From a virus, in the IMG/VR virus record IMGVR_UViG_3300041016_000100, positions 1 to 25,820 of that record: 25,820 nucleotides of DNA; one strand, given 5' to 3'. Each line of letters opens with the position of its first letter. Position 1 is the stretch's first letter. This document shows, in pieces, positions 2,196 to 16,628 of the stretch. The notes beneath the pieces were generated by a model. It ran no database searches. It had not been told where the DNA came from and was given only the letters and a program-made list of their open reading frames with translations. A program made the translations under genes and the position numbers.

Positions 2196-2698
2196 CTCCT
2201 TGCTAATAAAAATAATAATAAACCCAATAATATCAATCCTAAACCAACGCCAACAACCTGGGGAACTTTGATGCGTTCCGTATACTTAATCTGTGCGGGT
2301 AATGTGATGGTCTTGGTGAAACGGATCGTGTCTGCTTTAACAATTGTCTTAATTCTTATTACATCGTGGTTTCTGTAAACTATTGTTCTAACGCCATCTT
2401 TTTCAATTGTGATGGTATCGACCTTTTGCGTGGTGAAAGTGTCTGTAATGGTCACAGAATCGCGTACAAATAGCGTATCAATGCCATACACACTGATTTG
2501 TGCCATTGCGGGATTCTTTTTGATGGCTTGTTTCAAATACCATTGACTTGAACATCCCGTAAAAAGTATGATAACCAAAACGGACTTGGTAAATAAATGA
2601 CATGTTACCTTAACAACACTTTTTAATTGTGTCATGTATTGGGTCAATTTCTTGACCTTTTCTTCCTTGGGTTTGTATGTCTTTTTTACAAATTCCAT
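2192..2698 (-). CDS. Spanin-like membrane protein (candidate u-spanin)
   Basis: From the ATG at 2698 the product has 168 residues and overlaps the upstream gene by 13 bases. An internal ATG at 2635 would give 147 residues with a lipoprotein-like N-terminus: a basic n-region, the hydrophobic SVLVIILFTG, then Cys28 followed by Ser-Ser. The middle is a Thr/Val/Asp-rich stretch with repeated DTI- and DTL-type segments, probably beta. The last 21 residues (VVGVGLGLILLGLLLFLLARR region) form a clear transmembrane helix with an Arg-Arg cytoplasmic end. Outer-membrane lipid anchor plus C-terminal inner-membrane helix is the layout of unimolecular spanins, which disrupt the outer membrane at lysis. 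The lipobox (FTGC) is not ideal, and no holin or endolysin was recognised nearby. A structural membrane protein is the alternative. Confidence 0.7.
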   Translation of the reverse strand: MEFVKKTYKPKEEKVKKLTQYMTQLKSVVKVTCHLFTKSVLVIILFTGCSSQWYLKQAIKKNPAMAQISVYGIDTLFVRDSVTITDTFTTQKVDTITIEKDGVRTIVYRNHDVIRIKTIVKADTIRFTKTITLPAQIKYTERIKVPQVVGVGLGLILLGLLLFLLARR

Positions 2699-3198
2699 GT
2701 TACGAAATTCGATGGGTTTGTATTTGGGTATTCTCCCGATTCTTGGTTGGCGGTATATTCGGGGTATCTCTGTGGGAAATACGATAAGTAATCCACGCAA
2801 CGCCTCCGATAAGTTTCGGCAATGTTTCTTTGTCTTTGAACAATGGTGTCTAATTCTTCCTTGCTTGGCAACTGCGTGTTTTCTGGTGAATTACGAACAA
2901 TACCCGCATTTGTTACCTCATAGCCATGGAATAATAACAAATCACTCATTGCATAATGAATCAACAAAGGTTGCAAATAGTGTGATACCAACAAAAGGTA
3001 ATATCCCGCCAAGGTGCTTGACTGCACATCATCCAACAACCTACGATACAAAACAGTACCGCACAATTCTTGAACTTGAATGTCTTGGGCTATCTTGATA
3101 AATGGGGTTATTTTATCCACATCAAAATTCCCACTCAATTGGGTGTATTTGAATATGTCCTCCTTGGTGATTAATAATACATCATCGTTTGCGTACAT
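2686..3198 (-). CDS. Head-tail connector (gp6-like / DUF6712-type)
   Basis: 170 residues, mostly helical, beginning MYANDDVLLITKEDI with the segment IAQDIQVQELCGTVLYRRL near residue 37. This is the pattern of small head-completion proteins that form the ring below the portal and receive the tail. It follows the portal gene by one base, which fits that role. The family name is from memory and the exact family is not certain. Confidence 0.7.
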   Translation of the reverse strand: MYANDDVLLITKEDIFKYTQLSGNFDVDKITPFIKIAQDIQVQELCGTVLYRRLLDDVQSSTLAGYYLLLVSHYLQPLLIHYAMSDLLLFHGYEVTNAGIVRNSPENTQLPSKEELDTIVQRQRNIAETYRRRCVDYLSYFPQRYPEYTANQESGEYPNTNPSNFVTWNL

Positions 3199-3199
3199 C

Positions 3200-4978
3200 T
3201 TATTTATTTTTTAATGATCCTTGATTTGGCATATCAATGGGCCGTGTCTTTGCGGTATCCCACCCACTTGGTGAAAATGGTACACCCGCGTTATCGGCAC
3301 TCTTATTTGATACTTCGTTATAATTTTCTAAATCCCTATTCTCACCGCTTTCATTTGATTGCTTGGGTAAAAATTTACCCTTGATTTGCTTCCGTCTGAA
3401 TGTCAATCGTTCCCATCTGTGGTGACAAGATACTCCACCTTTGTACTTCCAAATAGAATATGAGCTTGTGCCACTCGGTGCAAATTGTCCGTTGACTCCC
3501 GCATCACCCATCGCAATAATATCTTCCCGTCTGTAAATTACTCCCCCTTGGGATTCGGAAACCATTGCAGTACAAAATTGCCTTGAATTGTCGGATACGA
3601 TATGAGGGCCATACCGATAACGGATTTTGTAAACCCCTTTATCATCACCACTTTTTTTATTGGGGTTTTCATAGGCCATCTCAAACTTCATTTCCTCATC
3701 CGCATCCGTTACCTCCGTGACATCAATCAATTCCCATACATCGGTGTTAATTATTTCCCCCCTATTTTGCAAATGTTCCAACCACGATTTACCATCGTCA
3801 TCGGTCATGTCTAACTCAATCTTTTTTTTTAATGACAAAGCAATACCAGTTTCCTCCTCACGGGTTTCATCATCAATTACATTGCCCGTTAAATCTGTAA
3901 ATTCAAGTGGTTGTAAGGTCTTGAAATACATATTTAAGTTATACCCATTGTGGTTCAATACCTTGGTGACTGCATCAATTACCAATCTTTGGAATGGTCT
4001 GATAACAACATTGTCAAACAATATAGATGCTGACTTTAATTCCTCCGCGTTATTGCCGAATCCCGTTCCATCCTTAATCCCCAATAACAAAGGTGATACC
4101 ACCCTATGTGATATCATTACTTTGGTCATGGATTCTGTGGATAAAAATTGATATTGGTTGTGGGCATCACTCAATTGCACTGGGGTAATATCCGCAGCCG
4201 AATCCTTGCCATCATTCCAACTGATAATAAACCGCCCCGCATTGCTTGATCCACCGAACTTTGATTTGATTTGTGCTTCAACAGTATCCTTAACCTCGGC
4301 GGGTGGCTGCCCATTGTTGAAGTTTATCAACATAGAAGGTGCAAGACCATTCATGATGTTGTTGATGTGGAAATTGGAAATCTCCGCTTCCAAGTTTGCA
4401 TATTGCGTACCGCCTTGGTAGTCCACGGGTGCGAAGTAAAACGAACCCGTTGAATATGGTTTGATTGTTAATATACATTCGTTTGAAGATTCATCATAAC
4501 CCCATGCCCGTATTTCGGTGGGTTGTGTGCCACGCTTGATATTGGCCCAATCTGGGTAATAATAATACTTTTCAATCTCGCCCTTATCGTTGCACTTGGC
4601 GGGGCGAAGTGTTTGTTGTGGGAAATGCTTGGCCTTAACATACTTTTTCTTGTCCTTTGACTTGATGAGTTGAAACGATGCTTGGCCCAACATCTTCAAA
4701 TCCATGATAATTGCCCGTAAATCATCCGCACTAAACATGGTTTTGAAATCAATGTAACCTGGCAAGTTCCGTGATGTGCTTGTTACCTCTAATCCCAAAC
4801 CATAGATTTGATCCGCTATGCCTTTAATACACGCATTGTTCGTGGGTGAACCATGATACAAGTCAATCAAATACTGATAATAATTATTGTCATCGCCGTA
4901 TTGTACCCAATCCTTGTTTTTTTGTTCAATGATTGATGGGGCGGTGTATGATTGTAGTTGTATAAATTCTAAACTCAT
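3200..4978 (-). CDS. Portal protein with an extra C-terminal domain
   Basis: The start MSLEFIQL at 4978 is chosen because its ATG overlaps the TGA of the preceding gene (ATGA); a start at 5029 would overlap by 55 bases. This gives 592 residues. The first ~440 residues look like a phage portal: GDDNNYYQYLIDLYHGSPTN near the N-terminus, IKGIADQIYGLGL, and a central region ending in ADEEMKFEMAYENP. The portal is the dodecameric ring at the capsid vertex through which DNA is packaged. The last ~140 residues are a separate domain with RYRYGPHIV, SRQFC, YRREDIIAMG, and KGGVSCHHRWER, so it has conserved-looking Cys and His. I have seen this domain after other Bacteroidota portals but know no function for it. 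The downstream connector gene follows immediately. Confidence 0.9.
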   Translation of the reverse strand: MSLEFIQLQSYTAPSIIEQKNKDWVQYGDDNNYYQYLIDLYHGSPTNNACIKGIADQIYGLGLEVTSTSRNLPGYIDFKTMFSADDLRAIIMDLKMLGQASFQLIKSKDKKKYVKAKHFPQQTLRPAKCNDKGEIEKYYYYPDWANIKRGTQPTEIRAWGYDESSNECILTIKPYSTGSFYFAPVDYQGGTQYANLEAEISNFHINNIMNGLAPSMLINFNNGQPPAEVKDTVEAQIKSKFGGSSNAGRFIISWNDGKDSAADITPVQLSDAHNQYQFLSTESMTKVMISHRVVSPLLLGIKDGTGFGNNAEELKSASILFDNVVIRPFQRLVIDAVTKVLNHNGYNLNMYFKTLQPLEFTDLTGNVIDDETREEETGIALSLKKKIELDMTDDDGKSWLEHLQNRGEIINTDVWELIDVTEVTDADEEMKFEMAYENPNKKSGDDKGVYKIRYRYGPHIVSDNSRQFCTAMVSESQGGVIYRREDIIAMGDAGVNGQFAPSGTSSYSIWKYKGGVSCHHRWERLTFRRKQIKGKFLPKQSNESGENRDLENYNEVSNKSADNAGVPFSPSGWDTAKTRPIDMPNQGSLKNK

Positions 4979-5316
4979 AGTGTTATCCATTGGGGTGTAA
5001 CTGGGGCCGTGGTATCCCACTGCTTCCAAGTGTTGTTAATGTTTGTCGTTCCCGTAATCCAATACCCTAAATACTCCCATACCAAATGGTCTGCATTGAA
5101 TATACGAATCAATATCTCATCCGTATTTTGTGCAACTAAATTGATTGGTGTTAAGGTAGGCAAATTCATCGTGTAGAACGAATATAATTCGCTTGGTGTA
5201 CTCGTAGCCGTTACCATTGTTTTGGTTGGCTTGTGCCACACCTCAATCACTGATACACCCGTAAATTCAACAAAGGATGTGAAGGTGATATTAGTGGATG
5301 CGTTATTGATGTGCAT
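4975..5316 (-). CDS. Hypothetical virion-region protein, 113 aa
   Basis: I chose MHINNAST at 5316 over an ATG 15 bases upstream because it is directly preceded by TTTTATAGGT, the same leader seen before the gene at 1981. The product has alternating hydrophobic residues and aromatic clusters (VWEYLGYWITG), suggesting beta structure. No family recognised. It sits between the tail tube and portal genes, behind a terminator hairpin, and its stop overlaps the portal start, so it is expressed with the portal. A minor head or neck protein is the likely role, by position only. Confidence 0.65.
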   Translation of the reverse strand: MHINNASTNITFTSFVEFTGVSVIEVWHKPTKTMVTATSTPSELYSFYTMNLPTLTPINLVAQNTDEILIRIFNADHLVWEYLGYWITGTTNINNTWKQWDTTAPVTPQWITL

Positions 5317-5353
5317 ACCTATAAAACGCAATTATCAATTTTTGTTATAAATG

Positions 5354-5380
5354 AAAAACCCCCACCGAATGGCAAGGGTT
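5354..5380 (-). terminator. Rho-independent terminator after the tail tube gene
   Basis: Read on the minus strand, a 10-bp stem (5380-5371 with 5366-5357, three G-T wobbles) closes on an ATTC loop and is followed by three further T. It lies 23 bases past the tail tube stop. Confidence 0.7.
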
Positions 5381-5403
5381 CACATAGAAATATGATTAAA
5401 CGC

Positions 5404-5970
5404 TTAAACTGGCATTGTTGGTGTAATAACCAACGCGATACTTGCTGATGAATTGGCATCCACGATTCCTGGTGGCAATTTCTCTTGGCTTGAAAAAGTG
5501 ATGGTATTCAAACGAGCATCACCCATTTGTACACCCCATGAACTTGATCCGCCATTGGCATCACAACCCAAAGTTTCACCCAACAACCACATTTGGTCGT
5601 TCCTATCCCAAACAATAATCTGCCATCTTCCTTTGGTCAAGGTTTGAATTGCATCCATATCGGCATCTCCCGTTACTTCGGTCAATCCGCTTGGCTTAAA
5701 TGACAAAGTAAAAATGGTTTCATACATTGATGTTCCATTATCGCGTGATGCGGTGATGGTTGTTTCCATGGTTGACAAACCTTTCAATTCCCAGAATGGG
5801 GCTGCAAGGGGCGTTGAATTTACACCATTGTCAATCAATGTGATAATTCCACTTCCGTCTTTGGTAACGCGGTTTGCAAATTCAAATGGTACAAAGTATG
5901 CTACTTTAATTCCACCGACATACTGCTTACACGGTTCGTATCTTCCTAATAATGTTCCACAACTTGGCAT
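5404..5970 (-). CDS. Major tail tube-type protein
   Basis: 188 residues beginning MPSCGTLLGRYEPCKQYVGG. The middle has the pattern TITASRDNGTSMYETIFTL, then KGRWQIIVWDRNDQMWLLGE and a closing TFSSQEKLPPG, the order seen in Bacteroidota siphovirus tail tube proteins as I recall them. This protein would polymerise around the tape measure to form the tail tube. It is the only gene between two intrinsic terminators (behind 6023-6000 and before 5380-5357), with no promoter-like site in the 29 bases before its ATG, so expression probably depends on partial read-through from the capsid gene. Confidence 0.75.
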   Translation of the reverse strand: MPSCGTLLGRYEPCKQYVGGIKVAYFVPFEFANRVTKDGSGIITLIDNGVNSTPLAAPFWELKGLSTMETTITASRDNGTSMYETIFTLSFKPSGLTEVTGDADMDAIQTLTKGRWQIIVWDRNDQMWLLGETLGCDANGGSSSWGVQMGDARLNTITFSSQEKLPPGIVDANSSASIALVITPTMPV

Positions 5971-5991
5971 GTTCTTGTTCTTATCTTGGTT

Positions 5992-6023
5992 AAAAAAAAG
6001 GGGCGGGTGTTTATGCCCACCCC
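5992..6023 (-). terminator. Strong rho-independent terminator after the major capsid gene
   Basis: On the minus strand an 8-bp stem (6023-6016 with 6007-6000, one T-G pair) with an 8-base loop is followed directly by eight T (5999-5992). It sits 23 bases after the capsid stop and 21 bases before the tail tube ATG. Confidence 0.9.
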
Positions 6024-6046
6024 AAGTTTATATCTATCCTATATTA

Positions 6047-6967
6047 TTAGGTTACATTAATTACAACTTGTTGAGTTGGGTTAGTTGCAATGATACCACC
6101 CGTGAAACGCATGATTGTACGAACATTCTGACTTCCGTCAATGTCGGCCATATCAATTACCTTCACTTCGTTGTAATCGCTTAACAATCCCGTTCCAAAG
6201 TGCAAATCACTTTTAAGACCCAATACACAATCCGAATCGTTAAGACCAGGACACATGGTTACGGGAATACCTTGGAAGTTCATTGGCTTCTCACCAACAT
6301 AGAATTGGAAGTTGTAGTTACCCGCAGATAACGCCGCTTGATACGCCTTCATAGTAACGGGGCCAACATAGTATTGGTAACCTTCTTTGCCATATAATGC
6401 AGCGGGTGAATAATCCAACGCTTCTTGCAAACGAGCAACAACATTTGATCCACTTGTTGCACCAGAGAATGGGCGAACAACTGATGAGTTATCAATCAAG
6501 TATTGAACCATACCACCCGTGTAGAATGTGTTGGTTTTCCAAATACCTAATTCAACACCTTGGGCAACTTCTGCGGCAACTTGGGCCAACAAAAATTCCT
6601 CAAATGTTGCGGGTAATTTCTCAAATGCACTGAATCCCGCTTGGGCTGCTTCCCATGTTGTACGCAAATTGTTCTTACACAAAGTTAAGTTTACTTGCTT
6701 TTCCACTGTGGTCAACACATATTCACCCAAAGTGATTGATGAGTTGTCCGCGTAATCGCAAGATGCAGAATCGATTGATACCGAGTTCTGCCAGTTACGG
6801 ATCACTTCTTTGAAAGCCACATTGGGGTGCAATGTGATAAGTTCTTTTGACAAGGTTTCACCCGACAAAAGGGCAGCGGCCACATACTTGCCACTCCAAA
6901 GACCCGCGTAGGTATTGGGGGAAACTGTTGGGCCACTTAAATTGATTTTGTTTAAATTATTGTTCAT
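6047..6967 (-). CDS. Major capsid protein (HK97-fold type)
   Basis: 306 residues, beginning MNNNLNKINLSGPTVSPNTYAGLWSG. Central segments such as TFEEFLLAQVAAEVAQGVELGIW, YYVGPVTMKAYQAAL and GIPVTMCPGLNDS are of the type found in HK97-fold capsid proteins of Bacteroidota phages: a long spine-like helix followed by A-domain strands. It follows the XkdF protease and scaffold genes, the usual order for a capsid gene, and is followed by a strong terminator, as expected for the most abundant product. No separate decoration protein was recognised. Confidence 0.85.
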   Translation of the reverse strand: MNNNLNKINLSGPTVSPNTYAGLWSGKYVAAALLSGETLSKELITLHPNVAFKEVIRNWQNSVSIDSASCDYADNSSITLGEYVLTTVEKQVNLTLCKNNLRTTWEAAQAGFSAFEKLPATFEEFLLAQVAAEVAQGVELGIWKTNTFYTGGMVQYLIDNSSVVRPFSGATSGSNVVARLQEALDYSPAALYGKEGYQYYVGPVTMKAYQAALSAGNYNFQFYVGEKPMNFQGIPVTMCPGLNDSDCVLGLKSDLHFGTGLLSDYNEVKVIDMADIDGSQNVRTIMRFTGGIIATNPTQQVVINVT

Positions 6968-6974
6968 TTCGTGG

Positions 6975-7604
6975 TTAGTTGAATAGTTGATTAAATACTC
7001 TGTCTTTTACTGATTCGGCTCTTTTATTGCCCATGTGGAATTGCAATTTTTTTGCTTCTCCGTTTGATTCTGGGTTGTGCAATGTGTGTGGGGCGGGTTC
7101 GGTTGCCAATCTGTTTGTCAATTCCTTGTTCTCCTCACTTAATTGTACTTTTTCTAATTCCAATGCTGATAAACGGGCTTCAAATCTTGCTTCCAATTCT
7201 GTCATCTGTTTGCTGAAATAAGATTCTTCCATTTCGGTTTTGCTTTTAACAACCCTCTTGGCCATTGGCATTTTTTCCATTGGTTCTTCCATTGGCATAT
7301 CCTCGGCTTCAACGATGGCTTCTTCCTCGGGGGCTTCTTCCTCCTTGGTTGCTACCTCTGTGATTGTTCCGTTTGGATCAACCGTAATTACATTGCCATT
7401 TTCTAATGCAAATTCACCTTCTGGGCATGGAATGTTACCATCTGGTGTTACGATAAATACCGCTTCACCAACGGCAAAATTGTCTGATTCAAATGTGGCT
7501 TGACCATCTTCGGTCTTAACTTGTGCCAAATCAACCTCTATTGTGGCTTCGGACTTTAATCCCAAAGTTGCCAATACGCGGTTTAATGTTTCGGTTGCGT
7601 TCAT
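6975..7604 (-). CDS. Scaffold-like head assembly protein
   Basis: 209 residues. The N-terminal ~85 residues form a small beta-rich domain with repeated DG/NG turns (TPDGNIPCPEGEF, ENGNVITVDPNG). A Glu-rich acidic stretch follows (about 85-110), then a charged coiled coil (about 125-165, ELEARFEARLSALELEKVQL) and a C-terminal segment ending DRVFNQLFN. Acidic linker, coiled coil and short basic tail are what scaffolds look like, and it sits between the protease and capsid genes. It is probably removed from the procapsid by the XkdF-like protease. The start is preceded by ATTTTAGATATG, a variant of the recurring leader. Confidence 0.75.
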   Translation of the reverse strand: MNATETLNRVLATLGLKSEATIEVDLAQVKTEDGQATFESDNFAVGEAVFIVTPDGNIPCPEGEFALENGNVITVDPNGTITEVATKEEEAPEEEAIVEAEDMPMEEPMEKMPMAKRVVKSKTEMEESYFSKQMTELEARFEARLSALELEKVQLSEENKELTNRLATEPAPHTLHNPESNGEAKKLQFHMGNKRAESVKDRVFNQLFN

Positions 7605-7616
7605 ATCTAAAATACT

Positions 7617-8234
7617 TTAATTGTTTATGTTGTTTGATTTTTGAAATTCAGTGAGTATGTCAATTACCTTGGCCAATTTCTCATCATCGGTTTGAACCTT
7701 TGACAATGGCATTGACTTGTCGGCAAAATAACCTTCGATTGAAAATCCTTTAACACGACCCGTCTTAACATAGTCGTTCCAAATCTCATCGTTGGTAACC
7801 TTCAAACATCCCATCCAAGTTCCAATCGGATCGGTCATACCATAGATGGCCGTCTTATCCTTTTCCATGTCCTCTTTAATCCACGATTCAACCATGCAAA
7901 TACCTTGCAACGCCATATCGTGTTCCAATGTGGCTTTCCCTTGGTTGCCTTTCATCAAGAACATTTGTGATGCACGGGATACCGTGTTCTTTGAAAAGTA
8001 CACATAAAATTCTTGCATCTCCCCATTCATTATTTGTTTGCGGAATATCGGTTTGTCGGGTATTAATACTGGCCCCATTAAAATGCGTTTTTCTGCATCC
8101 ACTTGGGCAAACTTAATTTCGTGTGCTTTCAATGCAATGAAATTGGATTCAATGGCGGGGGCTTCCACAATGCTTATCGCATCAATGCCACTTGCCAATT
8201 GTTGGTCATCCAATATCAATTCAATTATTCTCAT
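7617..8234 (-). CDS. XkdF-like prohead protease
   Basis: 205 residues. Matches the PBSX XkdF pattern: GPVLIPDKPIFR near residue 54, FYVYFSKNTV, a conserved EHD at about 100, ICMVESWIKED, DPIGTWMGCLKVTND and VKGFSIEGYF toward the end. XkdF-type proteins are predicted serine proteases that process scaffold and capsid in the procapsid; I cannot name the nucleophile with confidence. Start ATG overlaps the stop of the small upstream gene as ATGA, and the scaffold-like gene follows after 12 bases, the expected protease-scaffold-capsid order. Confidence 0.85.
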   Translation of the reverse strand: MRIIELILDDQQLASGIDAISIVEAPAIESNFIALKAHEIKFAQVDAEKRILMGPVLIPDKPIFRKQIMNGEMQEFYVYFSKNTVSRASQMFLMKGNQGKATLEHDMALQGICMVESWIKEDMEKDKTAIYGMTDPIGTWMGCLKVTNDEIWNDYVKTGRVKGFSIEGYFADKSMPLSKVQTDDEKLAKVIDILTEFQKSNNINN

Positions 8235-8503
8235 AATTTATTTAAGTCGTTTAAATACTGGCCTTTTACTTCCATCTCCATCATCATTGTATTTAATTCT
8301 TTTGGTTCGATACCAAACTTTTCTTTCATCTTTGCAATTTTTCCACATAACATTTTTGCTGCCTTGTAATGTACAATCGCTTTTATAATATCACTTTTAA
8401 TGTTATCATGTTTGCTTCTGATACTTTGAACTTTTGCTCTTAACAATCCCATTTCTTTGGTCAAATCTGATGATATCGATAATTCTATTCCTTGTAATTG
8501 CAT
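8231..8503 (-). CDS. Small helical protein, 90 aa
   Basis: Predominantly helical with many charged residues and a run of Met (TMMMEME) near the C-terminus; probably a coiled coil. No family recognised. It lies between the tape measure and the protease, the junction of the tail and head modules, and its stop overlaps the protease start. The start is preceded by TTTTTTATGATATG, close to the recurring leader sequence. A small assembly factor is possible. Confidence 0.65.
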   Translation of the reverse strand: MQLQGIELSISSDLTKEMGLLRAKVQSIRSKHDNIKSDIIKAIVHYKAAKMLCGKIAKMKEKFGIEPKELNTMMMEMEVKGQYLNDLNKL

Positions 8504-8518
8504 ATCATAAAAAACGAA

Positions 8519-10354
8519 TTAACCAGGGAATGTTGCATTTGTTTGTATTCTCCTATCAAGTGCTTGTTGTGAACTCATGTCGTTACCCACCACATACGCC
8601 TTTGCGGGTTTGTTCATGCTCTTATTTAAACTCGCTGCCATTTGTGCGGATGGATCAACTGTACCACCAATGATTGAAACACTAGGCCCCATACTTTGTG
8701 CTGATTGACCCGTATCAGATTGACCTGGCACTTTCACGGATAAGATTTTTTTAACATTCATTAAACCCGTCGCAATAATTGCCGCAGCATTTATGTACCC
8801 TAATGGTGGTGTTGCTGCCCCCGCTTCCAATGCTTTGTTTGCACCCGTATAGGTAGCAATAATCGCACTTGCTACTGACAACGCTTTTCCCATTGCCGTT
8901 TGTTCACCAACTAATTGTGAGAATGTTGATAATGCGTTTGCCGTGGCATCTAATATAGCCATTTTAGCATCAAGTGTCTTTTTTGCTAAATCTTTTTCTT
9001 TCGCAGCATTGTCTTTTTCAATTTGGAATTTTTTGTCAGCCAATGTTTGCGCGTTTTTTAGTTCTAAATCCGTAACTGCTAATCCCGCTGCTTTTCGTGA
9101 TTCAATCAATGCGTTGGTTCTATCAATTTCCATTTGATACAATGCTTCTTGTAGATCCTTTTCGTTTTGTATGGTATTATATGCTTCTAGTTTTTTAGCA
9201 TCTATTTGTTTATTGATGCTATCTTCCTTGGCTTTTTGCAATTCTTCTAGTCGTAATTTTTCCGCATCTAACGCAGCCTTTTCTGCATCGTCGGCTGATT
9301 TTAATGCTTCTTTTCTTTTTGCTGCATCTTCTTTATTTAATGATTCAATTCCTTTAATTAATTTTCGTTTACGTAAAATTGATTGGGCTTCTAATTCATA
9401 AACTTTGGATTGTGCATCTGCTGATTCTTGGGCCATTTCATCACTAACATCACTAAGAGAATTGCGTTGGTTAATTAAAGCCAATTTCTGTTTGGCAATT
9501 TTCATTTCTTTTGCCAACAAATTATCTTCCGCAGTACCAACTTGTTGCAATGCTTTTATTCTTTCTTCTAATGTGGCGTTTTCATCTTCCATCATTAATC
9601 TGGCCGCTGCTAATTCTTTATTTTGTTTTGACCTTTCTACTCCTAATGCTCTTTCTGCATCCTCAATTTTGGCAAATTGTTTTTCAATGTTTGCTGCAAT
9701 ATTTGCTTCTCGTTGGGCTTCATCCATTACTTTTCCTATTGCCTTTCCCGCTGCATCAAGTTTGCCCGTCATATCTTCAACTCCTAATGCAACTTTGGCA
9801 ACTGCGTTGGTAGCAACTTTTCCCGCTTCTGAAAATTCCCCAGAAAATAATAAACCAATTGCTTTACCTAATTGTGGCAACAATTCCAATAACCCTTCAA
9901 AACGATTAATGATGTTTTCTTTTAACATTCCAGCAAAATCACTTAATGCTTTTTGTGGATCTTCAAATATGGATATTAAAATTTTGGCCACTTTAACCAA
10001 TACATCTCTAAATACATTCATGACCGCACTTAAACCAGCCATGATTTGATCTACCTTTTCACCACCTTCATCCGTGGATGTGAATGCCTTGTACAACAAT
10101 CCTAACGCTGCCGTAATAGCCGTAATGGTCAACATGACGGGATTTGCTGCCAATACCATTAATGATTTGCCAAATCCTTGCACGGCTTGAACTGCTTGAC
10201 CAACGGGGCCTTTGATCCCCGCTAATTTTTCACCAATACCACTTGCTTTTTGCGCAGATGTTCCAACACCATCTAAACTTGAATTTAGATTGTCTACACT
10301 TTGAACTGCATCCTTAGTATTGATATTTACATTGTAATTTATTTGCTCGGCCAT
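8519..10354 (-). CDS. Tape measure protein
   Basis: 611 residues. N-terminal Ala/Gly-rich region, then hydrophobic segments around residues 65-90 (MVLAANPVMLTITAITAAL) and 110-160. A long charged coiled coil follows at about 200-465, rich in Ala, Glu, Lys and Gln. A second hydrophobic region is at about 470-535, and the C-terminus has AYVVGNDMSSQQALDRRI, a tail end I know from Bacteroidota tape measures. Tape measures set tail length at roughly 1.5 angstrom per residue, which would give a tail near 90 nm. It is short for the family. The gene follows the tail-tip genes rather than the chaperones, which is unusual. Confidence 0.9.
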   Translation of the reverse strand: MAEQINYNVNINTKDAVQSVDNLNSSLDGVGTSAQKASGIGEKLAGIKGPVGQAVQAVQGFGKSLMVLAANPVMLTITAITAALGLLYKAFTSTDEGGEKVDQIMAGLSAVMNVFRDVLVKVAKILISIFEDPQKALSDFAGMLKENIINRFEGLLELLPQLGKAIGLLFSGEFSEAGKVATNAVAKVALGVEDMTGKLDAAGKAIGKVMDEAQREANIAANIEKQFAKIEDAERALGVERSKQNKELAAARLMMEDENATLEERIKALQQVGTAEDNLLAKEMKIAKQKLALINQRNSLSDVSDEMAQESADAQSKVYELEAQSILRKRKLIKGIESLNKEDAAKRKEALKSADDAEKAALDAEKLRLEELQKAKEDSINKQIDAKKLEAYNTIQNEKDLQEALYQMEIDRTNALIESRKAAGLAVTDLELKNAQTLADKKFQIEKDNAAKEKDLAKKTLDAKMAILDATANALSTFSQLVGEQTAMGKALSVASAIIATYTGANKALEAGAATPPLGYINAAAIIATGLMNVKKILSVKVPGQSDTGQSAQSMGPSVSIIGGTVDPSAQMAASLNKSMNKPAKAYVVGNDMSSQQALDRRIQTNATFPG

Positions 10355-10494
10355 GATTTTGATTTTCGTTTATAGATTTTCCATACTTGCTTCCAAGTTT
10401 GTGCGTATTGGTTTTTACCTTTGGCAATTTCTACCGTATCCGATACCCCATACCATTCTTGGGCTTGTGCTAATTTTATAATGAGTAATATCAT
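10339..10494 (-). CDS. Small hypothetical protein before the tape measure, 51 aa
   Basis: Fills the gap between the tail-tip gene and the tape measure. ATG at 10494 overlaps the TGA of the 930-residue gene as ATGA, and the TAA at 10341-10339 lies 16 bases inside the tape measure gene. The product starts MILLIIKLAQAQEWYGV and ends in a Lys/Trp-rich basic stretch (QVWKIYKRKSKSWPSK). No family recognised. Such a protein between tail genes may be a small tail chaperone-like factor, but this is inference. The exact fit to both neighbours is the main support. Confidence 0.7.
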   Translation of the reverse strand: MILLIIKLAQAQEWYGVSDTVEIAKGKNQYAQTWKQVWKIYKRKSKSWPSK

Positions 10495-13283
10495 TTTTTC
10501 AGTATTAAAAAGTTAGATGAAACGATCGTGATGGTGTGGGATCCACCAGAAAAAAACTTCCACATTAATTGTACTTCATCGGTTGTTGAAAGGTCTAAAA
10601 TTGTGGATAAATAAGCCACTCCATAATCACTTCCAAATCCACTGAACGCACTTGTTTTTACTCCATTGACCATAATAGCAAAGGTGATGTGGTGACTTCC
10701 ACTTTGTGATACTTCCACCATTGCCGTAAACTTGTATTGACCACCATCAGTGCATATATATTTTGCCGTTGCCAAATCAGATGTAATGTTGTCAACATAG
10801 CCAATGGATACCTCCAATTCTTGTGGAACGGGAATGAATGTCGTTCCTTCCGTTGTGGATGACACGGAAGTTTCACGATACATTGTGATTTGGTTGAATT
10901 GTACAATCGCTTGTAAGCTTTCAACTTGTTGTGCAAGGTCACTAACACTATTTTGGTTGAATGTCGTGTCTTGGTTGCTATTCAAATAATCTTCCGTGCC
11001 ATAACGATACGAGTTCATAATACCTTTGGCCACAACATAATCTTGTAAATATGACAATCCGTTAACATTGATAACCACATCCGTGAAATCGGGTTTTTGC
11101 CCCGTGGTTGTGAACGACATAATATCAACATCTGGGTATGTCACCAATTCAAGGTTAGCCCATTGCGTTAACATATCGTATTTCACCGACTGCACTTTGT
11201 AATAATTGCCACTAATTGCGATGGTGTCGTTCAATTCAAAATTTAACCATTCACCCACGGGAATATACGCACCCACTTTTACCAACCTTGATTGTGTGGA
11301 ATACATACGAGATAAATACTCGTTCCAATACATCAAATACAATGTGTTTATGGGGGCATCTCCACGAACTGAATACTCCAACCCAAACGCCATTGAATAA
11401 CTTGATGAAATGGTTGGATAAGCGGAATATGATGTCATTAATGGCAATACATATTGGTTTACATTGTTGAAATAATATGGATCACTAATTGATTGCAAAC
11501 CACCATAATAAAACAATGTCAAATCTTGTTGCACCGCCTTGTTATCCTTATCCATAAACCTGGGGATGTTTAATTCCGTTGACCTTACTTTTTGATTATT
11601 GGCATTGGTTTCATCTAATGTTTGGGGGCATATTACATTGAACGGGGTTTCTAACTTAAATTCATCTGTTGGGTAATCAATCACGGGTGAAAATGTAACC
11701 GATCCATATTCCCTTCGATTGATGTTTCTGTAATACTCATTTGCCAAACATTCCGATGCCTTGTGGGTCATTGATACCACTTTTGGAATAGGTAATTTGG
11801 TATGCTCAATGTCTTTTGTATCAATAAATTCCGACCAATTCTTTGTCGTTCCTAACGCATACCAATCTTGAAGGTTGTGTATTTCTATGGTTGATGAGCT
11901 TGTCGGAATCAAAATGCAATTGTATGCTTTTATTACACCATTCACAAAGTCCTTAATCTTGGTTTGTGGCATAGCATCCTTCATGTCAATTGTACTTCCA
12001 TTAATCCCTTGGGGTGCAACTGTACACTCAAATGACATTGTATATGGTGATGATACATTGGCGGTCATTGTTCTATATCCATACGATACTTCGTCACCAC
12101 TTGTTAACACATAATCAAAATTTAGATAAGCGGGTGAAATAAATGTGTTCACATTGGTTGTAAATGTGCGACTTTTCATCACTCGGCCATTTAACATCAC
12201 TACAAATGTGATTACTTGCCCCGCAATGGGTGAATTAAATTGCACATACAACGACATTTCAAAGGTGTAATTACCCTTGCGATTTGCCGTGTATATGCCA
12301 GATGTTAAATTGTAGTTCCCAGATGGGTTCGTGGCCACTGTGGGAAATATAAGTGTCTTATAATTTAAGTTTGCAATTGTGAATTGTGTATAAGTAAATG
12401 TACTTACATACGCCGTTGCCAATCCCGATGCCACATACTCTGGGTCATACAATGGCCCCGCCGTTCCCATTGGTAAAATATAAGCATCATCCATTTCGGG
12501 TCGGTCTAAAAACGAACCACTTAATGTGTAAAGGGCTTCTGCAAATACCGTTGTTAACATTGCCTTCAATCTGATTGCGGGTCGTAAATCATCTACCTCC
12601 ACACCATTAGGATTCCGTATGTTTCCATTTATTCCCGATGCCAACGAATACCGCCAATTCTGATTATAGTCAGCAATGGGCCATAATATATCTCCACCCA
12701 CTAATGTTTGATTCCAAGATGCAACAATGTTTGTATAATTGGCCGTGTGGTCATACGCACCCCACATATTATAATTCAATAACTTCTCACCCCATACATC
12801 CAATATCTTTTTGGTCGTTCCGTAAAATACGATGTTGTAAAGTTGTGGGATGCCGTCTTTGTACTTACACCCAATAAACTCCACCCGCCCATCGTAAACG
12901 GGTAACGAGTGAATGTAAAGCGTGGCATTTTTACCAACATTGGGATTCCATCCACCCAATACTACATTCTCATCAAACCAATCCGCAAAGATTTGGTTGT
13001 TTGTTTCTGACGCGGGGATTTGAAAGTTCTGGGTGTAATCTGTCCATACTGTGGATAAATCTTGTAAATCTTTTAACTGTCTATTTAATTCGACACTTTC
13101 ATCCTTGAATAAATCAACGGGCAACAATTCATTGAACGCCCCACCCAATGCCATTAAACTTTCAATACAACAATCTTGGGCTTCGGTAAACCCACCAACC
13201 GCCCTTGTATATAACGCAGTCATGATTGGGGTGATGGTATCTTCAACCCCGTTGTCAATGGTCAATGAAAATCTTAACTCCAT
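10491..13283 (-). CDS. Large tail-tip / baseplate hub protein
   Basis: 930 residues. Near residues 60-100 it has DESVELNRQLKDLQDLS and FQIPASETNNQIFADWF, the signature I associate with the hub protein of Bacteroidota tails. The centre and C-terminus each contain a beta-sandwich module of similar pattern: GNYTFEMSLYVQ..VVMLNG..TSGDEVSYG at about 335-405, and GQYKFTAMVEVS..AIMVNG..STTDEVQLM at about 840-915. These resemble C1q/TNF-like or carbohydrate-binding jelly rolls. A predicted coiled coil (SDLAQQVESLQAIVQFNQ) precedes the last module. The ATG overlaps the upstream TAA as TAATG. It probably sits at the tail end and contacts the cell surface. Confidence 0.8.
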   Translation of the reverse strand: MELRFSLTIDNGVEDTITPIMTALYTRAVGGFTEAQDCCIESLMALGGAFNELLPVDLFKDESVELNRQLKDLQDLSTVWTDYTQNFQIPASETNNQIFADWFDENVVLGGWNPNVGKNATLYIHSLPVYDGRVEFIGCKYKDGIPQLYNIVFYGTTKKILDVWGEKLLNYNMWGAYDHTANYTNIVASWNQTLVGGDILWPIADYNQNWRYSLASGINGNIRNPNGVEVDDLRPAIRLKAMLTTVFAEALYTLSGSFLDRPEMDDAYILPMGTAGPLYDPEYVASGLATAYVSTFTYTQFTIANLNYKTLIFPTVATNPSGNYNLTSGIYTANRKGNYTFEMSLYVQFNSPIAGQVITFVVMLNGRVMKSRTFTTNVNTFISPAYLNFDYVLTSGDEVSYGYRTMTANVSSPYTMSFECTVAPQGINGSTIDMKDAMPQTKIKDFVNGVIKAYNCILIPTSSSTIEIHNLQDWYALGTTKNWSEFIDTKDIEHTKLPIPKVVSMTHKASECLANEYYRNINRREYGSVTFSPVIDYPTDEFKLETPFNVICPQTLDETNANNQKVRSTELNIPRFMDKDNKAVQQDLTLFYYGGLQSISDPYYFNNVNQYVLPLMTSYSAYPTISSSYSMAFGLEYSVRGDAPINTLYLMYWNEYLSRMYSTQSRLVKVGAYIPVGEWLNFELNDTIAISGNYYKVQSVKYDMLTQWANLELVTYPDVDIMSFTTTGQKPDFTDVVINVNGLSYLQDYVVAKGIMNSYRYGTEDYLNSNQDTTFNQNSVSDLAQQVESLQAIVQFNQITMYRETSVSSTTEGTTFIPVPQELEVSIGYVDNITSDLATAKYICTDGGQYKFTAMVEVSQSGSHHITFAIMVNGVKTSAFSGFGSDYGVAYLSTILDLSTTDEVQLMWKFFSGGSHTITIVSSNFLILKK

Positions 13284-14389
13284 TATCGTACAATCTTGTT
13301 AATCTTGGGTTGACTGTACTCGAATTGTATGGTGTATTGGATAAGGTATTCGTTTAATACTTTTTTCTTTTCAAATGCTGAATCAATTACTCGCGAAGCC
13401 AATACAATGTTACCATCCAACATTAAAATGTTGTTTGAGTAAAACACTTGTTCCAAGGCATCAATATCCGCTTCGTTGATCCAATCCGTGTTTACCATCA
13501 TAGTCAATTTTGAGTTGACTAAATACGAAGTGGTAACCCCTACGCCATAACTCCAATCTTGACCCAAATCCGCTTGTTTGAAAATCGGTTGTGAATATGT
13601 TTCTTTTTCAACTCCGTAATTGTCACGGCTTAATGCGTTGAATAAATAGGAATCATAAACCCCGTATTTGTTTAGGAACAACGCATCTTGTTGACCATAC
13701 TTATTCTGGCAATCAAATACCACGGGCATCACAACATCATTCCCCGTTTTTACAAAAGTGATATTGGAATCCGTACCCCATACTCCACCCGCCGTCATCA
13801 ATTGCTTTATTTCAATTCCTTGGATTAACTGCGATTGTGTTGTAATTGCATTTGGTGTTACCGTTGCACTTCCACAAGTGATGGATGTAATCACACTTGC
13901 ATCGTACCATAAATACGCTTGGGGGGTTTCGGTTGTCAATGTAACTTGTGATTTGTCCGTATAGACATACTTAGCCCCGTAACCGACATTAAATCCATCT
14001 TGGGTGTATGTGTATCCACTTGTGGCCAATATCGTGTTAGAAGTGATTAATGATGTTGATGTGCTTGAATAAAACCCTTGGCAAGTTACCACCACTCGCA
14101 TTGCACCATCACCGATATTTGGTTGGTATGTACCCGTTAAGAAATAATCCCGTTTTACATATTGACTGACAATTTTGTGTACATCAATCCATCCCCTTCC
14201 CCCACCAAATTGGTCGGGTACTCTGTTAATGGTTACAATCGGGGTTGCGGGTAATGTGGCCGTGCCACTCCATACATAAACCTTAAATTCATAATAGAAT
14301 CCCGTGACTGCATAATTGCCGTCATATCCTTGGTAAATAATTGGGGAATTGCACCCCACAATTGAATCTGGTTGTTCCGTGAAGTTCAT
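13283..14389 (-). CDS. Tail protein (distal tail type)
   Basis: 368 residues, strongly beta-rich. Starts MNFTEQPDSIVGCNSPIIYQ with FYYEFKVYVWSG and VTINRVPDQFGGGRGWIDVHKIV, and ends YTIQFEYSQPKIN. I recall proteins of this pattern directly before the hub gene in Bacteroidota phages, where they are called tail or distal tail proteins; catalytic motifs were not seen. ATG overlaps the upstream stop as ATGA, and its own stop overlaps the hub gene, so the two large proteins are coupled and likely assemble together. Confidence 0.7.
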   Translation of the reverse strand: MNFTEQPDSIVGCNSPIIYQGYDGNYAVTGFYYEFKVYVWSGTATLPATPIVTINRVPDQFGGGRGWIDVHKIVSQYVKRDYFLTGTYQPNIGDGAMRVVVTCQGFYSSTSTSLITSNTILATSGYTYTQDGFNVGYGAKYVYTDKSQVTLTTETPQAYLWYDASVITSITCGSATVTPNAITTQSQLIQGIEIKQLMTAGGVWGTDSNITFVKTGNDVVMPVVFDCQNKYGQQDALFLNKYGVYDSYLFNALSRDNYGVEKETYSQPIFKQADLGQDWSYGVGVTTSYLVNSKLTMMVNTDWINEADIDALEQVFYSNNILMLDGNIVLASRVIDSAFEKKKVLNEYLIQYTIQFEYSQPKINKIVR

Positions 14390-14937
14390 TTCTTGAATAG
14401 TCCTTTTTTAATATCTTGTGACATCGCTTGGGTCAAAGCTTTATTGAACGATGGTAAAATTTGTTGTCTTGCTTGTGTTACAAATGGGAATGGCTCAATA
14501 CCAAAATACTTTATTTTGCGATTCATCATAAACCGCATGGCGTTTTCATCTGCCTTGCCTTTGAATCTTCCCGTTCCCATATCCCTTGGTTGGATGCGTT
14601 TCATCTTTGTCCAATTACGCATTGAATCCAATGGAATCCCCTTACCTGGTTTTCTTCCCCTCTGTACATAATCCGCCGTCTTGTTCATCGTGATTCCCAA
14701 TGTCAAACCATTCGGATCGGGTTGAATAGAACCCACCAATTGCCCAGATGCTACATAATTACCACGGAATGTCTTTTTGGTTGCTGACACCACTTGCCAT
14801 CCACCACCTACCTTTTTCCACTTGGCACGGATTGAAACACGGGGGCGTTTTATTTCCAACATATTCCGACAAGCAATTGCCCACTTCTTGGAATAATCCG
14901 CAACAACGGAAACGCTATTCTTAAACGCAATCGCCAT
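14386..14937 (-). CDS. HK97 gp10-like tail completion protein
   Basis: 183 residues, basic. N-terminal helix with KKWAIACRNML, a central strand region with SGQLVGSIQ and the characteristic DYVQRGRKPGKGIP at about 89-103, and a C-terminal helix with PFPFVTQARQQI. This is the layout of the HK97 gp10 / tail-joining family, which closes the tail-proximal end. Overlaps the upstream gene by 17 bases and the next gene as ATGA. Confidence 0.7.
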   Translation of the reverse strand: MAIAFKNSVSVVADYSKKWAIACRNMLEIKRPRVSIRAKWKKVGGGWQVVSATKKTFRGNYVASGQLVGSIQPDPNGLTLGITMNKTADYVQRGRKPGKGIPLDSMRNWTKMKRIQPRDMGTGRFKGKADENAMRFMMNRKIKYFGIEPFPFVTQARQQILPSFNKALTQAMSQDIKKGLFKK

Positions 14938-15412
14938 CAGTAACCCAAGGGTTGATTAAATCAATTGTAACTTGTATTTGAAATCCCGCTAATACTGAAT
15001 CCATCGTTTCAACAAATGGCATAAAGTTTATGGGGCGTTGGAATTGGATTTGATTAAAATAGGTTTGTTCTAACAACCACAATCCTTTTGACATTTGCAC
15101 ATACATTTCTTGTAAAATATGCCCATAGTTTTCATTCTCCGTGTATCCGTATTGGTCGTAAACTGTAATCAAGTTTAACTGTTCGTTCTCACCTTTCAAA
15201 AAGTTTACACGATCCGCAATCATTACATTCATTTGAATGGATGCGATTTGGTCGGTCAACGCCACATTTTGAATTGAACAGTGCATCAACGGGAATACCG
15301 TGAACGCCTTGAAATCTAACTCTGTTAATGTTCCGTGGCTATAATTCCATCCTTCCGTTGTGGCTATGTCCTTGAATACCTTGAATGCCGTTCCTATGTG
15401 ATTATTGTTCAT
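14921..15412 (-). CDS. Tail terminator-like protein
   Basis: 163 residues. Mixed alpha/beta with HGTLTELDFKAFTVFPLMH near the start and FMPFVETMDSVLAGFQIQV near the end, a pattern I have seen in small tail proteins that cap the tube. It stands between the chaperones and the gp10-like gene, as tail terminators often do. The ATG at 15412 overlaps the TGA of the -1 chaperone frame as ATGA. Confidence 0.6.
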   Translation of the reverse strand: MNNNHIGTAFKVFKDIATTEGWNYSHGTLTELDFKAFTVFPLMHCSIQNVALTDQIASIQMNVMIADRVNFLKGENEQLNLITVYDQYGYTENENYGHILQEMYVQMSKGLWLLEQTYFNQIQFQRPINFMPFVETMDSVLAGFQIQVTIDLINPWVTDGDCV

Positions 15413-16148
15413 CGCTTGTAACTTTGTTTAATGATTTTTTGTTCCATTTCCGCAATGTCGCTCTCGTAAGCGGTGAAATACAAAGCGGTGTGAATGGTCT
15501 TAGTATACACATCTTCCAATTGTAGGAAATTTCTTGAAGCGAGTCGATAGACCATTCCAAACCATCCCCATTTTTTGGTAAGGCGGTTTTCATCTGCTGA
15601 CCCATCTCCCCCTCCAAATACTTCTGGATAGAATTCAGTAAGTCGATTCCTAAACTCCAAAAAAAAACCATGGCCCCAAATGTGGTGTTGCAATCCAAAT
15701 CTTTGAACCCAGTAACAAGGTTTGCGGAATAGGGTGCAATCTCATACCTTCCGTTCTGTCCGCTATGCGTTACGGGGCGATATAAGACACTCATCACTCT
15801 CCATAGGTCGTGGGTTTCCTTTGTGTATGTTTCGATGTCTATAAACTCACCCACCGACATATCATCCAAGTTGGGGATAAATCCGTATTCAACGCCATCC
15901 ATTTTGAACTTGGGTGTGAATGTTGGTGATTCGGTTAACATCAAAGTGATCCGTTCAACCGCCTTGGTTAAAACATCAAACGGCATGGCCATAACCTCGG
16001 TCATGGTCAATTCACAAAAAATGGAAACGGCTTCCAATTGTCGTTGGGTATCATCCATCTCGGGTTTGAGGGATTCATACGCCAACATTTGATGCAACTT
16101 CACATCTTTAAGCGATGTGGGTACTAATATGCTTTTGGATTCAATCAT
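15402..16148 (-). CDS. Tail assembly chaperone G (zero-frame product), 248 aa
   Basis: Starts MIESKSILVPTSLKDVKLHQM and includes FGAMVFFWSLGIDLLNSI, typical of the first chaperone protein in Bacteroidota phages. Tail chaperones coat the tape measure and bring tube subunits to it. The zero frame passes the T9 run at 15667-15659 and remains open for a further ~85 codons to 15402. After about residue 195 the sequence (WKMCILRPFTPLCISPL) looks less like a conserved protein than the -1 frame. The upstream gap of 33 bases has the TTTTATAAT leader before ATG. Confidence 0.75.
   Translation of the reverse strand: MIESKSILVPTSLKDVKLHQMLAYESLKPEMDDTQRQLEAVSIFCELTMTEVMAMPFDVLTKAVERITLMLTESPTFTPKFKMDGVEYGFIPNLDDMSVGEFIDIETYTKETHDLWRVMSVLYRPVTHSGQNGRYEIAPYSANLVTGFKDLDCNTTFGAMVFFWSLGIDLLNSIQKYLEGEMGQQMKTALPKNGDGLEWSIDSLQEISYNWKMCILRPFTPLCISPLTRATLRKWNKKSLNKVTSDEQ
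15409..16148 (-). CDS. Predicted GT chaperone made by -1 frameshift
   Basis: The zero-frame gene, read to the T9 run and then shifted -1, joins the frame that ends at 15409. That frame carries KKWGWFGMVYRLA, LEDVYTKTIHTALYFTAYES and EMEQKIIKQSYKR, the pattern of the second chaperone of Bacteroidota phages. Its 5' end has no ATG before FGMVYR; the first start codon is a TTG at 15693, so ordinary initiation would miss the conserved part. Its TGA overlaps the ATG of the next gene as ATGA, the junction type of this genome, whereas the zero frame runs 7 bases further. This supports programmed slippage as in lambda G/GT. A sequencing indel in the homopolymer would also join the frames. Confidence 0.65.
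15659..15667 (-). other. Slippery T9 run for -1 frameshifting
   Basis: On the minus strand the zero frame reads ATG GTT TTT TTT TGG, so T TTT TTT is a legal X XXY YYZ slip heptamer. Moving back one base joins the zero frame to the frame that carries the second chaperone. I did not identify a clear downstream pseudoknot. Confidence 0.65.
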
Positions 16149-16181
16149 CTATTATAAAACGACTGAATTGGGGTTTGTTGT

Positions 16182-16628
16182 TTACACCTCCAATGCCTCG
16201 TTCAATAATACGGTGACTTTACCATATTGCCTTTGCACTTCTTTGTCTGACCACATTATGTTTCCAAATTCCCTCACTGAATTAATAATGGTTGAATGGT
16301 CGCGGTGGCTGATGTTTCCAATTTCGGTTAATCCCATCACCAATCGCTTTCTGCAAATGTAATTAAACATGTGACGGGCAAATAGCTTTGACCTTTTCCG
16401 CGATGGGCAAAGTATTTCATCGGGTGTTAAATCGGTTACCGTACACACCGCCCTTAATACTTCCTTCCAATGTGTGGGGGTATCGTTTAATTGAATGCGG
16501 GGTTTGATTATTTCCCTTTTTAATTCCTTGACCTGGGAATGGCAATCACTTTGTATTGCTACAATTAATAATCGCAATCGTTTAACTTCTTGTTTGAGTA
16601 AGTGTATTTGTTGGTAATGGCTTGTCAT
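16182..16628 (-). CDS. Stand-alone DnaA domain IV-like DNA-binding protein
   Basis: Start at 16628 (MTSHYQQIHLL) chosen because its ATG overlaps the methyltransferase TGA as ATGA; an ATG at 16715 would overlap by 90 bases. 148 residues. Residues 1-40 form a charged coiled coil. Residues ~53-145 match the C-terminal DNA-binding domain of DnaA: HWKEVLRAVCTVTDLTPDEIL, SRKR (76-79), FARHMFNYICR, LTEIGNISHRDHSTIINSV, including the HRDHST signature at 108-113. The AAA+ ATPase domain is absent, so it could bind DnaA boxes but not act as a full initiator. It may regulate replication or host DnaA activity, and the coiled coil may dimerise it. Confidence 0.8.
   Translation of the reverse strand: MTSHYQQIHLLKQEVKRLRLLIVAIQSDCHSQVKELKREIIKPRIQLNDTPTHWKEVLRAVCTVTDLTPDEILCPSRKRSKLFARHMFNYICRKRLVMGLTEIGNISHRDHSTIINSVREFGNIMWSDKEVQRQYGKVTVLLNEALEV

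Follow-up and report, generated by a model that had tools for sequence, protein, structure and literature searches.

The main finding of this study is that, in a phage genome fragment and its many relatives, one gene very likely makes use of a −1 switch of reading frame at a conserved run of at least nine T—a reading that we draw from comparative sequence evidence—and could thereby yield two proteins with a common N terminus, the zero-frame product G and the fusion GT. As to how the switch is made, we put it at about even chances that in this large, mostly uncultured phage family the G:GT ratio is set by RNA polymerase slipping on an obligatory run of T≥9, and not by ribosomes, with 55 codons coded in both frames. 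The sequence analysed is IMG/VR record IMGVR_UViG_3300041016_000100, positions 1 to 25,820; "the window" refers to this whole stretch of 25,820 nucleotides.

Results

The features of the locus are collected in Table 1. The first 163 aa of G are also the N-terminal part of GT, a fusion of 246 aa that would be read in the zero frame up to T9 and in the −1 frame from there. On the minus strand the run stands in the context GCC ATG GTT TTT TTT TGG AGT TTA GGA; past it, the −1 frame reads TTG GAG TTT AGG..., with the product LEFRNRLTEFYPEVFGGGDG...KKWGWFGMVYRLA...KIIKQSYKR. The initial annotation had proposed that the zero frame crosses T TTT TTT just where a −1 shift joins it to the second frame, with which coordinates and translations agree, that this second frame has no ATG before its conserved part, and that its TGA (15411-15409) shares bases with the start codon that follows (ATG, 15412-15410, as ATGA). 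The last two points hold as well; to them may be added that the −1 frame contains TTG codons at −26 and +7 relative to the run. The −1 frame is open for 74 nt upstream of T9 and contains no ATG or GTG there.

The G/GT gene points the same way in the operon as the gene for the tape-measure-like protein and lies upstream of it, with four genes between. The gene order over window positions 2686-18690 is unusual, with terminase, methyltransferase, G/GT, tail genes, and tape measure ahead of protease, capsid, and portal. Between the methyltransferase and G, positions 16182-16715 encode a 177-aa protein (phrog_16091, unknown function), the C-terminal part of which resembles by eye the DNA-binding domain of DnaA (SHRDHSTIINSV motif). 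A second nine-base run (A9, coding minus strand) is found at 3822-3830, where KKK codons occur near residue 400 of the portal protein; the portal profile match spans this run, which speaks against a frame switch there.

Table 1. Coordinates of the G/GT locus and associated features in the window
Feature	Position	Strand	Remarks
Zero-frame product G (248 aa)	15402..16148	−	phrog_32199 match, E 1.6e-14
Putative slip run T9 (A9 on plus)	15659..15667	−	zero-frame codons GTT TTT TTT TGG
In-register heptamer T TTT TTT	15666-15660	−	inside T9
−1-frame T domain (83 aa, LEFRNRL...KKWGWFG...SYKR)	15409..15660	−	predicted to be made only after the shift; alignment of 38 lineages
Next gene, ATG overlapping the −1-frame TGA	14921..15412	−	ATGA overlap also in 195/287 relatives
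Tape-measure-like protein, same tail module	8519..10354	−	phrog tape measure families, E 6e-14
Stretch open in both frames	15409..15658	−	zero-frame openness versus expectation
TAG in third (+1) frame, two codons past the run	15650..15652	−	stop positions across lineages

Scans of viral contigs and bacterial genomes gave 287 distinct loci spanning the site, from near-identical to the window protein down to about 28% identity with it. Among them are two flavobacterial MAG contigs and Nonlabens phages P12024L/S, the sole relatives in the phage collection. On this evidence the family is large and mostly uncultured, and where hosts are known its cultured or genome-linked members are in Flavobacteriia. 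In one relative (L058, 495-665), the −1 frame has a stop inside the T domain—the ORF ends at 665 while the similarity goes on—presumably through a local error or because the copy is broken.

Several lines of evidence show T9 to be the true junction. First, when changes among 32 close relatives are sorted by zero-frame codon position, those up to T9 fall 39/20/175 at positions 1/2/3 (175 of 234 at position 3), whereas those from T9 on fall 7/26/12, a distribution that fits the −1 frame. Second, both halves align across 38 lineages, the −1 domain doing so from the residue right after the run. Third, 38 of the 287 distinct relatives have a −1 stop no more than 11 nt upstream of the run, so that in those relatives the −1 frame would have to be entered at the run. 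The initially proposed switch with two products is supported, as a conserved one, by the frames of substitution and by a run of at least nine T in 287/287 relatives, and no relative among the 287 has the frames fused in DNA.

These data also bear on three other explanations of the locus. One would place the shift 90 nt downstream of T9, at an A6 motif (A AAA AAT) that is in register and conserved within the closest group; zero-frame similarity to relatives continues past T9 (residues 7-197), and A6 marks both the end of this homology and the onset of the strongest conservation in the −1 frame (KWGW). However, the −1-frame codon constraint is already in force at T9 and the −1 frame aligns across the 38 lineages well before A6, while the zero-frame similarity past T9 would be accounted for by both frames being coding there, which makes a shift at A6 highly improbable. 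The candidate site itself (C CAA AAA AT, 15570..15576, minus strand) was rejected, as a heptamer is found near there in only 13/82 lineages. Homopolymer runs are in general error-prone and mutable, and a sequencing or assembly error, or replication slippage of the phase-variation kind, could have split a single gene. This explanation is equally hard to credit, because the same run is found in 287 distinct assemblies (two isolates, P12024L/S, among them), its length differs in 0/262 close pairs, the frames are never fused, and the zero frame past the run is under selection to stay open. The third explanation, that the second frame is a separate gene with an internal start and no fusion, can appeal to the 55-aa ORF annotated from an ATG in P12024L/S and to the TTG codons in the −1 frame of the window. 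It has little to commend it given that the conserved domain starts at the run, some 30 residues ahead of the annotated ATG, that the −1 frame lacks an ATG in 120/165 loci of the first set, and that the upstream stops described above close that frame just before the run.

Comparison across lineages establishes that about 55 codons past the run are coded in both frames. Against an expectation computed with the −1 protein sequence fixed and codons sampled from the family's own usage, the zero frame past the run is open for 57.0 codons on average versus 16.9 expected (sd of mean 1.6), and for at least 50 codons in 79/82 lineages versus 5.5 expected. In most relatives it stops about 55 codons past the run (84 codons in the window's clade). 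This openness goes far beyond expectation, and G thus has a selected tail, some 55 residues long, that overlaps the T domain. A +1-frame stop occurs within 3 codons of the run in 81/82 lineages; we dropped it as extra evidence of slippage and do not count it, since 78.5/82 are expected from the residues that the other two frames encode, which mostly force it.

The length of the run varies little. T9 is present in 38/38 close loci spanning the site and, among the 287 distinct relatives, the run is T9 in 259, T10 in 25, and T11 in 3; a run of 7 or 8 T was seen in 0/287 distinct relatives and 0/82 lineages, and every one of the 287 has an in-register T TTT TTT copy. Conservation of T9 at the junction is far above chance, for which the rest of 41 other lineages (148 kb) provides a measure, with five T9 and no T10. 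On a protein tree of 106 lineages there are about nine changes of register and about seven of length, through which the run stays at nine or more. There are also signs of compensation between its two ends: where ACT, GGT, or AAT precedes TTT TTT, TTG comes directly after these two codons; each of the three lineages to have lost the 5′ T has gained a 3′ T, and both of those with CTG after the run carry TTT before it. Leucine after the run is TTR in 12/12 lineages in which the first codon is not TTT, TTR usage elsewhere being 56%. Tests of compensation give p values of 0.005 and 0.003 that are not tree-corrected; the pattern amounts to three plus one independent events, with which a tree-aware sign test cannot reach significance, and after tree correction compensation is suggestive only.

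TTC as the third codon was never seen in 82 lineages, though in most cases it would leave both protein sequences unchanged, and phenylalanine elsewhere is TTC in 23%. Under a model in which only the heptamer is kept, this absence has p of about 3e-4 over 82 lineages; with coarser lineages p is 0.01 over 47 (60% identity) and 0.18 over 18 (50% identity). When the amino acids of both frames and an all-T heptamer are fixed, a run of at least nine is forced, so the encoded proteins may by themselves account for its length.

The sequences compared show none of the known kinds of ribosomal stimulator at the site. Downstream RNA structure by nested folding has mean z of 0.11 and −0.01 for 55 or 85 nt past the run in 81 lineages, with no systematic stem across them, and single folds past the run have z from +0.1 to −1.7 with no fold in common. 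A pseudoknot in the bases after the run, which the initial annotation had suggested looking for, is likewise not visible in these 81 lineages under nested folding, which can miss pseudoknots. SD-like 4-mers upstream are not enriched (0.18 of lineages versus 0.00-0.39 in control windows).

Discussion

As the mechanism that would make GT, we lean toward RNA-polymerase slippage on T9, for which the sequence pattern argues somewhat. According to this model, one gene would give rise to two tail-assembly-chaperone-like proteins, G and GT, with 163 aa in common. GT would arise mainly because the polymerase slips on T9 and, in some transcripts, adds one U (or loses two); U10 transcripts would be read straight into the T domain by ordinary ribosomes, while transcripts one base short or two long would lead to a stop a few codons on. 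As in lambda, many copies of G and few of GT would coat and bridge the tape measure and the tail tube in tail assembly. With a single extra U, the product is precisely the −1 fusion, the same peptide as ribosomal slippage yields. In bacteria, a run of nine A or T suffices for efficient RNA polymerase slippage (PMC5009743), and conservation of the length of a 9A/9T run across homologues has been put forward as a very likely sign of functional slippage in transcription (PMC1088944). All 287 relatives show such conservation, and this fit of the run-length pattern slightly favours RNA-polymerase slippage over ribosomal frameshifting.

Programmed −1 ribosomal frameshifting, in which two Phe-tRNAs re-pair one base back on U UUU UUU and a fraction of ribosomes enter the T frame, is the main competing explanation, and one to which we give real but lesser weight. 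The canonical heptamer is in register in every relative, U UUU UUU readily causes shifts in E. coli (PMC4066793), every classical shift in a tail chaperone has been described as ribosomal (PMC5009743), and the length of the run may be forced, as noted above, by the amino acids of both frames together with a T7 heptamer. However, seven T would do for ribosomes, yet seven or eight are never found; U UUU UUC, which is among the efficient ribosomal motifs in E. coli (PMC4066793), never replaces U UUU UUU; neither downstream structure nor an SD-like stimulator was found; and register and length vary on the tree with the run still at nine or more. Taken together, the invariance of T≥9, the lack of a visible stimulator, the absence of U UUU UUC, and the long dual coding suggest that the locus may at least equally be a case of RNA-polymerase slippage. 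Searches of the open-access literature turned up no paper describing transcriptional slippage for a tail chaperone or a frameshift in the phage family of phrog_32199/phrog_38404.

The product is probably a tail-assembly chaperone, a role suggested by the architecture of the gene and its place in a tail module. The initial annotation had named it so, and these two features agree; no significant profile or fold link to lambda G, Mu gp41, or solved structures came with them. G belongs to phrog_32199, of unknown function (38/38 members match), and the T domain matches phrog_38404, also of unknown function. Beyond these, there are weak matches only, to phrog_166 tail protein (best 2.4e-4, 9/38 members), phrog_8595 (0.026), and Phage_TAC_7 (0.1); matches in BFVD are to uncharacterised phage proteins and to one weak "tail assembly chaperone". 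These family matches and the BFVD name point weakly to a tail or chaperone role. No homology to lambda G or Mu gp41 was detected with hhalign, and PDB sequence and fold searches and VIA-align gave no significant match to solved structures, an absence that proves nothing. The AlphaFold model is confident for G (pLDDT 84) and not for T (70).

By analogy, the gene would work like lambda G/GT, the likeness being one of arrangement, with a different slip element. As in lambda gpG/gpGT, there would be one start and two products, with a −1 fusion to a second domain, the fusion stop adjoins the following gene, and the locus is in a tail module. In lambda, ribosomes slip on GGGAAAG near the end of G, whereas the element in the window is T≥9; G extends past the slip site by about 5 codons in lambda and by some 55 dual-coded codons in the window's family; and the lambda-type gene is usually, though not strictly, directly upstream of the tape measure, from which four genes separate it in the window. 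The comparison with lambda made in the initial annotation stands for the arrangement, whereas the T≥9 run, the long overlap, and the lack of a visible stimulator point to RNA-polymerase slippage at least as much as to lambda's mechanism. The G/GT-like arrangement is known; what is new is that the run is always T≥9 and that so long a stretch past it is coded in both frames.

Other parallels are with genes in which transcriptional slippage has been described, namely T. thermophilus dnaX, Shigella mxiE/spa13, Citrobacter tssM1, and poly-A IS elements. Like the window, these have a run of at least nine A or T at the junction, a run length conserved where homologues are known, and an other-frame stop soon after. 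Unlike the candidate described here, none of them is a phage tail chaperone; in the window a long conserved domain takes up the alternative frame, the run is of T, and slippage is putative. The closest parallel among cultured phages is P12024L gp40/gp41 (phrog_32199/phrog_38404), which is of the same family (28% identity) and has the same T9 and the same −1 arrangement; unlike in the fused reading proposed here, the two are annotated as unrelated hypothetical proteins. P12024L gp41 (L412 12522-12689; NC_018272.1 24473-24640) and phrog_38404 start at an internal ATG, with about 30 domain residues missing.

The findings have consequences for how such genes are read. The conserved T domain (83-85 aa) is missed or shortened in current annotation. 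G/GT frameshifting in tailed phages has so far been treated as translational; if RNA-polymerase slippage is indeed at work in this family, on a run of just the length that the enzyme requires, then conservation would extend to the ratio of the two products and not to the mechanism that sets it, a situation already seen for dnaX of Thermus and of E. coli.
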